A stretch of 64,000 bases of DNA from Archangium violaceum (GTDB lineage: Bacteria; Myxococcota; Myxococcia; Myxococcales; Myxococcaceae), in NCBI RefSeq assembly GCF_016887565.1, contig NZ_CP069396.1, positions 3,003,001 through 3,067,000 of the forward strand. The letters are read 5' to 3'. Position numbers and translations under genes: made by a program. Position 1 is the first letter of the stretch. Each line of letters begins with the position of its first letter. Shown in pieces: positions 40,686 through 44,675 of the stretch. Under the pieces are notes generated by a model, which was not told where the DNA came from, ran no database searches, and saw only the letters and a list, made by a program, of their open reading frames with translations.

Positions 40686-42620
40686 CTACGGCGCCTTCAC
40701 CACGAGGCGCAGGCCGGTGGGGAGGCGGGTGGTGTCCTTGATGTTGTTCCAGCGCTTGATGTCCTCGACAGTGACCCCGTAGCGCTGGGCGACACTCCAG
40801 ATGGACTCACCGGCGGCCAGCTCGTGCACGGTGCCGGGGCGGCCCGCGTTGCCGGCCGGGGCCCGCTGGGCGATGACGGTGCCCGCGCGCTCCTCCACCT
40901 GCTTGGGGGCGTTGTCCGGATACACGTACAGCACCGAGCCCACCTTCAGCGCCCGCTTGCTGGTGCGCGCCGACAGGTTGTTCCACTTGCGGATGTCCTC
41001 CGCGTTCACCTGGAAGCGCTGGGCGATGGCCCACAGGCTGTCACCCGACTGCACGCCGTAGGTGACGCGCTTGCGGCCGTTGATGACCTCCGTCTTGATG
41101 GGGCCCGTGGCCACCGGACCGCGAGGCGTGCCCGCCGGCACCTCGTCCTCGGGGCGCAGCACCGTCACGCCGCTGCTGCGCGCCTGCGCCACCTTGCGCG
41201 CCAGCGCGCTGTTCTGCCCCGTGCCCTCGCCGCCTCCGCGCCCGTTCGGCACGGGGATGACCAGCTCCGCGTTGAGCCGGAGCGTCTTCACGCTCTTGAG
41301 CCGGTTCATCTGCAGGATGGCCTCGGCCGCGCTGCCGTACTTGAGGGCGATCTGCGACAGCGTGTCGCCCTTGCGCACCTTGTGGACGCGGAAGGTGAGC
41401 CGCTCCTTGGGCGCGATGCGGGCGAAGTTCTCCGCGAAGCGCTCCGCCGAGCCCTTGGGCAGGCGCAGGGTGTACGGGTTCTTCGCGCTCGCCGGCGGGG
41501 TGCACCAGCGCCGCAGCTCGGGGTTGAGCTCCTGCACCTCCTTCACGTCCACGCCGGCCGCCCGGGCGATGACGTCCAGGTCGGTGGCGTCGTTGATCTT
41601 CACCTCGTCGAAGGAGAGGGCCGGCTCGTAGGCGAAGTCCTTCTCGTCGAAGCCGAAGGCGGTGGGGTGCTTGGAGATGAGCGCCGCGGCGATGAGCTTG
41701 GGCACGTAGTGCCGCGTCTCCAGCGCCAGCCCCTTCTCCTCGGGGGCGGAGATCACCCAGAAGTCCTTGGTGCCCAGGCGCTCCACCATCCTGCGCACCC
41801 GGCCGCTGCCCGTGTTGTAGCCCGCCCACGCCAGGTACCAGTGGCCCAGCTCGTTGTAGAGGTCCTTCAGGTAGCGCGCGGCGGCCGTGGTGGCCTTGAT
41901 GGGATCCCTCCGCTCGTCCACCCAGAAGTCCTGGTGCAGCCCGTACTGGCGGCCGGTGCTGGAGATGAACTGCCAGGGCCCGGAGGCATGCGCCCACGAG
42001 TAGGCGTTGGTGGAGAAGCCGCTCTCGATCATCGCCAGGTACACCGTGTCGCGAGGCAGCCCGTTGGCCTCGAGGATGGGCTGCATCACCGGCAGGTAGC
42101 GGGTGGAGCGCTCCATCCACTTGCGGAACCACTTGCGGCCCGGGCCCTGGAAGAACTGGATGTACTGGGCCACCAGCGGCTGCATCTCCACGGGGATGTC
42201 GTACTTGCCCTGGATGCGCGAGACGTCGAAGCTGGCCACGTCGGTGATGAGGGACAGCTCGGCCTCGGCCTCGTCCTCGCGGAAGGTGGGCTCCTCCAGC
42301 GCGTCCAGCATGCGCTGGCGCAGCGGGTTGGCCAGGCCCAGGCGGCGCAGCGACTGGAGCACCTCGGCGTTGGGCCGGGCGCCCGGATCCAACGTGGCGC
42401 CTTCCAGGGCCCGCATCTCCTCGAGCTCGGTGGACTCGGGCTCCACCTCCTCCGGGTCCTCCTCGGGCGTGGCCTCGGGCTCCTCGGCGGAGCCCAGCAG
42501 CAGTTGCTTGTCCTCGGTGCCGAGCACCCGCATGCCGGGTGGCGGCGGGGGCATCGTCAGCGCGTCCTGGGGAGTCGGGACCGAGGTGAGGACCAGGAGG
42601 AGCAGGCTGAAGTGCGGCAT
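40686..42620 (-). CDS. MltD-like lytic transglycosylase with three LysM domains
   Basis: A 644-residue exported murein hydrolase. The ATG at 42620 follows AGGTG; a GTG two codons upstream is also possible. A short signal (PHFSLLLLVLTSVP) leads into an acidic segment, then the family 1 transglycosylase domain at about 170-330 with catalytic Glu199 in AMIESGFSTNAYS and the motifs GPWQF and AWAGYNTGSGRV. Three LysM peptidoglycan-binding modules follow (VRKGDTLSQIALKYG, VQSGDSLWAIAQRF, LAAGESIWSVAQRYG). The absence of a lipobox distinguishes it from E. coli MltD. Role: cleavage of glycan strands during wall growth, remodelling or predation. Confidence 0.9.
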   Translation of the reverse strand: MPHFSLLLLVLTSVPTPQDALTMPPPPPGMRVLGTEDKQLLLGSAEEPEATPEEDPEEVEPESTELEEMRALEGATLDPGARPNAEVLQSLRRLGLANPLRQRMLDALEEPTFREDEAEAELSLITDVASFDVSRIQGKYDIPVEMQPLVAQYIQFFQGPGRKWFRKWMERSTRYLPVMQPILEANGLPRDTVYLAMIESGFSTNAYSWAHASGPWQFISSTGRQYGLHQDFWVDERRDPIKATTAAARYLKDLYNELGHWYLAWAGYNTGSGRVRRMVERLGTKDFWVISAPEEKGLALETRHYVPKLIAAALISKHPTAFGFDEKDFAYEPALSFDEVKINDATDLDVIARAAGVDVKEVQELNPELRRWCTPPASAKNPYTLRLPKGSAERFAENFARIAPKERLTFRVHKVRKGDTLSQIALKYGSAAEAILQMNRLKSVKTLRLNAELVIPVPNGRGGGEGTGQNSALARKVAQARSSGVTVLRPEDEVPAGTPRGPVATGPIKTEVINGRKRVTYGVQSGDSLWAIAQRFQVNAEDIRKWNNLSARTSKRALKVGSVLYVYPDNAPKQVEERAGTVIAQRAPAGNAGRPGTVHELAAGESIWSVAQRYGVTVEDIKRWNNIKDTTRLPTGLRLVVKAP

Positions 42621-42772
42621 GGTCACCTGGGGTTTCGGCTACCGGGAGGGCCGGGCGAGTGGTTTGAAGGTCAAGTATTCGACGCTTGGGGCGAACCTGG
42701 AACAAGCGTCCAGACAGCCTATTCTCTCCCTGGATGGTCCCGGCGGGAAGAAACGCACCCCCGTGACGTGTT

Positions 42773-44287
42773 CTAGGGCTTCGGCTTCACTTCCTGTGGC
42801 TGGCCATGGCCGGGGCCGAGGATCCTCGGCACGTAGGTGGCGAAGTCGAAGTGGGGAGAGTTCTCCCGGTTGTGGCAGGTGACGCACACCGCCTGGCCAG
42901 GGCGGGCGGTGATGTTGTCGGTGGAGGGGTCCTCCACATGGAGCGAGCCGGGGCCGTGGCAGCTCTCGCAGCCCACGTGCTCGCGGCCGGCCATCTTGTC
43001 CAGGCGGCACACGCCACCGGGCTGCTCCCAACCGGTGACGTGGCAGCCGGTGCAGTTGAGGTGGTGCTGCTTGCCCACCTCCTTCAGCGTCTCGATGGCC
43101 CGGTGGTGCTTGGAGGCCTCCCACACCGGGAAGGACTCCTTGTGGCAGTCGGCGCAGGCGGCGCTGCCCACGAAGGCGGCCTGGCCCTTCGCGGGGGCGG
43201 GGCAGTCCTGGCCGTGGGCCTTCGCCCATTCCAGGTTCATCTTCCCCACGTCCGCGTCATAGGCGTTCACCACCGCCATGGCCTCCGGGCTCGAGGCGAG
43301 GGTGGACTCCAGGGGGACGAAGCGCACGGAGAAGGAGTCCGAGTCGCCCGTGGCCGTCACCGGCGTGGTGAGGAGGGCCTGACGGCGCGCCACCAGCTCC
43401 TCGCGCTTCTGCTGCTTGAGGCGCTTGAGGTTGGGGTCGATGCCGGGGAGGTTGATCTCCTTGTCCAGCAGCTCCATGCGCCGGTCGATGGAGGCGGCCT
43501 CGCGCTCGGTGTCCTCGGCCGTCTTCTGCGGGGTGAAGGGGCCCGGCTTCGCGCCGTAGGCCAGGTCCACGCGCAGCAGCGAGCGGCCCTTGCTCTGCAG
43601 TCCGACGACGGGCACCGCGTCACGCGCCAGCCTGTTCTGCTCGCCGTCGAACTCGGAGGCGGTGTGGGTGGCGAGCACCAGGTCCACGCCCGGCTCCGGG
43701 GTGGCGGTGGCGCGCTGGGCCTCCTCGAGGGTGCCGTGGAAGAGGCCCACGACGAAGTCGGCGCCCTGGGCGCGCGCCCTGGCGCTGGCCTGCTTCAGTC
43801 CGGCCGCGTCCGAGGCGCTCACCACGCCCACCTCGCGCTTGCCGGCGGGCAGCACCTTCACCCCGCCGGGCTCCAGCTCGGGCAGTCCCAGGCCGCGGCG
43901 GAAGTCGGCGCCGCGCGTGTCGTCCAGCTCGCCCACCGCGCGCACCGTCAGGCCCATGCGCTTCATGGCCTCGGCGAGCGCCCGGGCCTTGCTCTCCTCC
44001 TGGGGCACCTGCTCCGGCTGGAGCGTGGGGGCGCCGAAGAGGCTGTCACCGCCGTCCACGTAGAGGACGGGCAGCGGGCCCTTGCGCGCCTCTTGAATCT
44101 GGAAGGCCGCGCGCGCGATGCCGCCGCGCATGTTCTCGCTGCAACCGCAGGGGCCCAGGTAGCCGCGGGTATCGGCGGAGAAGAAGAGGACGGCGCCCGG
44201 AGCCTCCGTGCGCGCCGGGGCCGACTCCTTGCGTGTGCATCCCGAGAGCGCCGCCAGCAGGACCAGTCCGGGGAGGAGCCGTCTCAC
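42773..44287 (-). CDS. lipoprotein with metallophosphatase-like domain fused to a tetraheme cytochrome c
   Basis: A 504-residue lipoprotein (lipobox LSGC, Cys17) starting at a GTG. Residues 30-245 follow the 5'-nucleotidase/UshA metallophosphatase plan: ADTRGYLGPCGC near 39, DGGDSLFG at 78, GELDD at 119, VGLFHG at 180 and ATHTAS at 206. Several metal-ligand positions differ from the family (DTR instead of DxH, GELDD instead of GNHD), so catalysis is doubtful. Residues 265-305 are coiled coil. The C-terminal part has four CxxCH heme sites at Cys378, Cys412, Cys440 and Cys468 plus extra histidines, as in cytochrome c554-type proteins. It likely sits in the periplasm and passes electrons. It follows a response regulator gene by 4 bases. 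Confidence 0.8.
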   Translation of the reverse strand: MRRLLPGLVLLAALSGCTRKESAPARTEAPGAVLFFSADTRGYLGPCGCSENMRGGIARAAFQIQEARKGPLPVLYVDGGDSLFGAPTLQPEQVPQEESKARALAEAMKRMGLTVRAVGELDDTRGADFRRGLGLPELEPGGVKVLPAGKREVGVVSASDAAGLKQASARARAQGADFVVGLFHGTLEEAQRATATPEPGVDLVLATHTASEFDGEQNRLARDAVPVVGLQSKGRSLLRVDLAYGAKPGPFTPQKTAEDTEREAASIDRRMELLDKEINLPGIDPNLKRLKQQKREELVARRQALLTTPVTATGDSDSFSVRFVPLESTLASSPEAMAVVNAYDADVGKMNLEWAKAHGQDCPAPAKGQAAFVGSAACADCHKESFPVWEASKHHRAIETLKEVGKQHHLNCTGCHVTGWEQPGGVCRLDKMAGREHVGCESCHGPGSLHVEDPSTDNITARPGQAVCVTCHNRENSPHFDFATYVPRILGPGHGQPQEVKPKP

Positions 44288-44291
44288 CGCG

Positions 44292-44675
44292 TCACCAGAT
44301 GATGCTCTGCACCAGCTCGTCGATCTTCTCGCCCATCTTCTCCAGCCCGTTCACCTTGGAGAGGCTGCCGTCGGCACCGACCTGCTCGGCCAGCTTGCTC
44401 AGCTCGTCGTCCGGGAGGCTGGAGAAGAGGATGATGGGGATGTCCTGGGTGCCGTACTCGTTCTTCAACGTCCGGCAGATGTCGGTGCCCTTGGCCTCGG
44501 GCATGTGGATGTCGGTGAGGATGAGGTCCGGCTTCCACGTCTGCAGGGTCTTCTCGAACTCCATCAACGTGGAGGTGGCGACGACCTCATAGCCGCGCGC
44601 CTCCAGCACGGCCTTCTCCATGGCGAGAGTGATCTCGCTGTCGTCAATGAGCAGGATTTTTCGCTTCTCTTGCAC
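44292..44675 (-). CDS. single-domain response regulator
   Basis: A 127-residue CheY-like receiver with acidic pair Asp11/Asp12, phospho-acceptor Asp55 in LILTDIHMP and a Ser-Lys pair late in the chain (GSLSKVNGLE) where the conserved lysine should be. No output domain. The GTG at 44675 is preferred because AGGAAGAGG stands just ahead; an ATG at 44744 lacks such a site. It is four bases upstream of the cytochrome lipoprotein gene, so the two are probably co-expressed although they act in different compartments. Confidence 0.88.
   Translation of the reverse strand: MQEKRKILLIDDSEITLAMEKAVLEARGYEVVATSTLMEFEKTLQTWKPDLILTDIHMPEAKGTDICRTLKNEYGTQDIPIILFSSLPDDELSKLAEQVGADGSLSKVNGLEKMGEKIDELVQSIIW

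Follow-up and report, generated by a model that had tools for sequence, protein, structure and literature searches.

The gene at positions 42773..44287 of the 64,000-nucleotide stretch of Archangium violaceum DNA analyzed here (hereafter, the window) encodes a 504-amino acid protein in which profiles and structural models identify a UshA/SoxB fold joined to a tetraheme cytochrome c554-like domain. This protein is probably a cell-envelope lipoprotein that lacks the dimetal hydrolytic site of the SoxB/5'-nucleotidase fold and works through a pair of cysteines, C47-G-C49, wired to the hemes. All window features described below lie on the minus strand.

Domain architecture and structural models

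The open reading frame runs from a GTG start codon at 44287 to a stop at 42773; 48 relatives align with the window protein along their length, the closest being 94% identical, and the frame is therefore real rather than a chance one. A predicted signal peptide (44237..44287) ends in a lipobox, LSGC, whose cysteine, C17, is kept in at least 90% of the sequences in a 49-sequence alignment; the Pfam model LPAM_1 matches this peptide with an E-value of 0.008 and 17 bits, below the cut-off of 20. Residues about 28-354 (43226..44206) form the 5'-nucleotidase/SoxB-like domain, with structural alignments at Z scores of 20.5-23.9 over the 50 matches listed, and residues about 369-497 (42797..43183) form the tetraheme domain, which matches PF13435 (cytochrome c554) with 52.9 bits at a cut-off of 20.8. 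The preliminary description had posited a UshA-like half fused to four intact CxxCH sites in an electron-transfer lipoprotein; fold matches, motif positions and the PF13435 match bear out the fusion, and with C17 in its lipobox the protein does look like a lipoprotein.

An AlphaFold2 model of the protein, built from 49 sequences, has a mean pLDDT of 88.9 and a pTM of 0.87. In VIA-align comparisons on this model, the N-terminal half matches the 5'-nucleotidase 3ivd (Z 23.9, 2.6 A, 245 aligned residues), the nucleotidase 2z1a (Z 23.8), CD73 (Z up to 23.7, 2.5 A, 243 residues) and the thiosulfohydrolase SoxB (2wdc; Z 23.2, 4.4 A, 250 residues, 23% identity). With all of these Z values less than 1 apart, the fold by itself does not decide between a nucleotidase and SoxB. 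Neither the metallophosphatase model nor the 5'-nucleotidase C-terminal domain of Pfam matches the window protein at E-values up to 1, and the place of the latter domain is taken by the cytochrome.

Conservation was counted in a 129-row alignment composed of the window protein, 48 rows from loci that NF041198 hits and BLAST searches with this protein had turned up, a route that could favor the PCG motif, and the best 80 of the 394 confirmed loci with the pattern V[GQ]CExCHGP in the heme region, which were not chosen by that motif. Loci L072 and L017, where the BLAST match stops short of the N-terminus, the second, heme-less frame of L132 and duplicate loci were omitted; L088, which has no N-terminal part, was dropped from the counts of 128, and both members of an identical pair (L070/L087) and of a nearly identical pair (L029/L116) were counted.

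The four heme motifs are CADCH (378-382; 43142..43156), CTGCH (412-416; 43040..43054), CESCH (440-444; 42956..42970) and CVTCH (468-472; 42872..42886). When the C-terminal 145 residues were modeled alone, as protein only (82 sequences, pLDDT 93.0), cytochrome c554 (1ft6) aligned over 133 of the 145 residues (Z 12.9, 2.4 A, 31% identity), and the next match beyond a second c554 entry was 6qvm at Z 6.8. Three conserved histidines outside the motifs are candidate distal heme ligands: H394 (43106..43108; 129/129 rows), H450 (42938..42940; 128/129 rows) and H494 (42806..42808), present in 35/35 close orthologues and in 99/129 rows, some of which end early. In c554, one of the four hemes is five-coordinate, and three further histidines for four CxxCH motifs would fit a c554-like coordination. 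Four strict CxxCH motifs occur in 114/129 rows, 14 others have one longer-spaced motif, and L152 is cut off. The longer motif is a fourth motif of the form CX3CH, an uncommon heme-binding spacing, in 13 of these 14 rows (L009, L082, L011, L095, L118, L101, L109, L110, L102, L115, L108, L149 and L128). The Archangium genome also encodes a stand-alone small tetraheme c554-type cytochrome (L007, C1:8190392-8190697) that resembles the C-terminal part of the window protein and has no UshA half.

An invariant C-G-C/U motif with selenocysteine exchange

Between the two altered metal motifs DTRGY and GELDD, to which the preliminary description had been confined in this domain, lies P46-C47-G48-C49 (44141..44152), proposed here as a redox motif on the strength of its conservation and of selenocysteine (Sec) exchange. 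C47, G48, C/U49, G55 and G80 are ranks 1-5 by conservation among the 301 columns of the N-terminal domain in 128 relatives. Position 49 is Cys (TGC or TGT) in 113/128 and TGA (Sec) in 15/128. A GGTCT apical loop, a feature known from SECIS elements of bacteria, the one of Escherichia coli fdhF among them, is found 14-34 nt downstream in 13/15 Sec members vs 4/113 Cys members. The mean folding energy is -12.3 kcal/mol for the Sec members and -17.2 kcal/mol for the Cys members and does not set the two groups apart in this manner: the SECIS-like signal lies in the loop and not in stability. The window gene itself has neither an in-frame UGA nor a SECIS element: its codon 49 is TGC and the GGTCT loop is absent.

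The relatives with TGA include members of the Desulfobulbaceae, of other Thermodesulfobacteriota and of the Acidobacteriota, and on a quick tree at least three changes between Sec and Cys are needed. The Cys member of Ca. Electronema (L124) is nested inside a Sec clade and retains the GGTCT loop, as if its change from Sec to Cys were recent. At another distant locus, the tetraheme PCGU gene is immediately preceded by a further UshA-like frame (L132:4460-5518), which has PCAU and is heme-less.

The 13.2-Mb host genome carries SelA (575 bits), SelB (328 bits) and tRNA-Sec (73.2 bits), all above cut-off. It also contains a heme-less UshA-like paralogue whose single in-frame TGA falls precisely on the U of PCGU, with a GGTCT hairpin downstream of it. 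This paralogue (L001, C1:9075916-9079974, minus strand, about 1480-2590 of that locus) lies downstream of a TPR lipoprotein gene and has no family match in Pfam. Among the matches listed, 64 of the 96 genomes belonging to the family of the window show a one-TGA match of this kind, and the motif was read in 11 loci, 8 of them from that family or from the window genome. An Rfam search of five paralogue loci found no SECIS family, and the hairpins were then read by folding. Since the host holds this heme-less PCGU gene, we regard the window gene as a cysteine, heme-bearing relative of the Sec paralogue.

Drift of the former metal site

The metal positions of the N-terminal domain show the opposite pattern, ranking 64-295 of the 301 columns in the 128 relatives. 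Aligned to the family profile, L006, a nucleotidase encoded in the Archangium genome with DLH, GNHE and GHTHQ intact, places D39-T-R41 of DTRGY (residues 39-43; 44159..44173) on D-L-H, a former D-x-H motif with R in place of H; G80-D81 on G-D; E120-L-D122 of GELDD (residues 119-123; 43919..43933) on N-H-E, a former GNHE/D motif in which E replaces N and L replaces H; and H184 (43736..43738) and H208 (43664..43666) on the two later histidines. The ligand set (D, H, D, N, H, H) is thus incomplete in the window protein, where R41 and E120 stand for H and N, and the altered ligands pointed out in the preliminary description hold up. Across the 128 relatives, the canonical ligand is kept at position 39 in 74, at 41 in 7, at 81 in 52, at 120 (Asn) in 0, at 184 in 39 and at 208 in 44. 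None of the six ligands is kept in 21 relatives, one in 54, two in 17, three in 16, four in 20, and five or six in none. With four of the six ligands as the maximum in any relative, and the Asn in none, the alignment indicates that the canonical dimetal site is lost family-wide.

The window protein and its genus are among the relatives with the most metal-site residues left, retaining D39, D81, E120 (at the Asn position), D122, H184 and H208. An unlikely reading, though the strongest rival to a thiol-based enzyme, is that the N-terminal domain binds one metal through D81, E120, H184 and H208, with C47/C49 possibly as extra or alternative ligands, and acts as a hydrolase or as a metal-centered redox enzyme whose hemes serve the metal. 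These residues do sit at the positions of the UshA site, four of six ligands persist in the 20 relatives counted above, and Cys and Sec are both able to bind metals. However, even among 35 close orthologues, position 184 is His in 19 and position 208 in 23, the Myxococcus-type orthologues have N81, P120, D184 and R208, and all relatives keep C-G-C/U, including the 21/128 with none of the six ligands.

Genomic neighborhood

The window gene stands in a conserved, single-strand order behind a lone response regulator and ahead of an SLT/LysM lytic transglycosylase (40686..42626; PF01464, PF01476). The regulator (44292..44675, with the start codon picked by eye) has a receiver domain only (PF00072, 69 bits) and ends 4 bp upstream of the GTG start, an arrangement that the preliminary description had correctly reported as a tandem. 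Among the 60 loci listed, the window included, the gene has the regulator next to it in 33 and the transglycosylase downstream in 42; in 96 more diverse loci, the transglycosylase is the commonest neighbor (18/96), and no operon partner common to all phyla was found, the other recurrent neighbors being lineage-specific (a ribosomal/trmD cluster, DUF4159). The neighbor clusters of these 96 loci include shadow frames on the opposite strand, and only clusters of recognizable genes were used. In the 25 closest other loci listed, the regulator is 92-100% identical, and the UshA/cytochrome gene, the transglycosylase and MscS span 53-98% identity; judged by these identities, the receiver-only regulator is under unusually strong constraint. 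One contig titled Comamonas sp. KCTC 72670 (L084) carries the whole myxobacterial block of regulator, UshA/cytochrome gene and transglycosylase and groups with Myxococcus in the tree; this record is probably mislabelled or contaminated.

The window's own neighbors (response regulator, lytic transglycosylase, MscS) are uninformative on electron transfer. At 19 chosen distant loci, mostly of Sec members, redox neighbors occur in a minority: NapC/NirT multiheme cytochromes at four (L119, L132, L145 and L148), two of which also encode a multiheme protein that matches cytochrome b561 below the cut-off, a DsbA at L135 and a DsbC-like protein at L124. The remaining distant loci have DUF1573 or DUF4159 neighbors or nothing telling. 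In the Planctomycetota/Verrucomicrobiota loci L130, L129, L140, L159, L144 and L156, a same-strand DUF4159 gene is found about 1 kb upstream. The host genome encodes NapC/NirT proteins at two places, neither near the window gene.

The regulator, which did not turn up beside the distant relatives, is weakened as an obligate partner. This bears on the earlier proposal of a phosphatase domain that has lost its catalytic activity, provides docking or sensing to an electron-transfer lipoprotein and is tied to the response regulator, a proposal that we now consider rather improbable. Part of it stands, in that the canonical phosphatase ligands are gone and the regulator is a frequent neighbor among close relatives; we found no link of the domain to sensing, the regulator adjoins the gene in close relatives only, and the Cys pair is present in the distant relatives where the regulator was not found. 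A domain used for docking only would not be expected to hold an invariant Cys pair that alternates with Sec while the metal ligands drift. The invariant C-G-C/U and the Sec exchange, which the proposal leaves unexplained, lead us to reject a dead docking domain as the full explanation. The loss of the dimetal site is supported, and the verdict of a dead, merely docking or sensing domain is not.

It is very improbable that C47 and C49 form just a structural disulfide in a plain electron carrier: that role suits C362 and C427, which occur together in 55/128 relatives and never singly and likely form a disulfide, but the costly Sec kept at position 49 in the 15 Sec members speaks against it, Sec being unusual at structural sites.

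A possible thiol/selenol redox enzyme

Redox chemistry in the N-terminal domain is favored because the loop by the former metal site holds an invariant C-G-C, or C-G-Sec in the members with TGA. In the mechanism we propose, C47-G-C49 would replace the hydrolytic chemistry, and the pair would cycle between a dithiol (or thiol-selenol) and a disulfide (or an S- or Se-bound substrate), with the four hemes carrying electrons to or from it. The NapC/NirT neighbors of four relatives point to a reductive direction, in which electrons might pass from quinol through a NapC-type cytochrome and the tetraheme domain to the pair and on to the substrate. From the likeness to SoxB and the DsbA and DsbC-like neighbors, one may guess, weakly, at sulfane or thiosulfonate sulfur, oxidized selenium species or a protein disulfide as that substrate.

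More tentatively, these proteins may constitute a class of enzymes, spread over many phyla, in which a metallophosphatase/SoxB fold has been turned to thiol/selenol redox chemistry and joined in one chain to a c554-type tetraheme domain. Such enzymes would connect the quinol/cytochrome pool of respiration with sulfur, selenium or disulfide substrates of the envelope, and in myxobacteria they would work beside a heme-less Sec paralogue. By splitting what is kept (C-G-C/U and four hemes) from what has drifted (the metal ligands), the alignment yields a testable question: is this a cytochrome-coupled thiol/selenol enzyme, and which substrate does it use? The Cys form in culturable myxobacteria, with the Sec paralogue in the same genomes, offers a system free of the difficulty of selenoprotein expression.

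Comparison with known systems

Lists of selenoproteins have included UshA-like members since 2008 at the latest (PMC2398784), named after phosphatases whose metal site the family lacks. PMC9312934 and PMC2398784 list them with the motif CxU, the latter singling them out as an exception among the families that have Cys redox motifs, and a table row in PMC13188914 ties NF041198 to 'UshA-like protein, CxU'. The literature we searched yielded no functional study of them. The closest curated family (NCBIfam) is NF041198, UshA_like_PCGU, 'UshA-like (seleno)protein', which the window protein matches in two stretches with 240.1 bits, the best one reaching position 518 of the 519-position model; because this is less than the cut-off of 275 bits, we file the protein as a relative and not as an equivalog member. 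Two Sec members match nearly the full model length with 364 and 651 bits. The window protein shares with this family the two-domain layout, PCG(C/U) and the c554-type tail; it differs in having Cys (TGC) rather than UGA and in its place in a response-regulator/transglycosylase row.

The multiheme cytochrome selenoproteins MccSep/ExtKL (9wt8; NF040886) likewise combine multiheme c with Sec and share a c554-type stretch (E 0.009), but the match is limited to chain residues 49-138 of 9wt8, and the Sec in the entry title is U325. NF040886 gives the window protein 18 bits at a cut-off of 250. UshA/CD73 5'-nucleotidases have the same catalytic-domain fold (Z up to 23.9, 2.6 A), from which the window protein departs in having no intact DxH, GNH or GHxH and no matched nucleotidase C-terminal domain. 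SoxB (2wdc, 4uwq; TIGR04486) is alike in fold, with the Z score and identity given above, and TIGR04486 gives 78 bits with L136, a Sec relative, below the cut-off of 550; unlike SoxB, the window protein has fused hemes, does not keep the metal ligands and has no TIGR04486 match among the 12 NCBIfam families that match it at E-values up to 1. The tetraheme half resembles Nitrosomonas cytochrome c554 (1ft6, 1bvb) in its whole-domain fold and its four CxxCH motifs, but the window protein reaches 36 bits for NF043010 at a cut-off of 400, and this half is shorter, has a lipid anchor and is joined to a SoxB/UshA fold.
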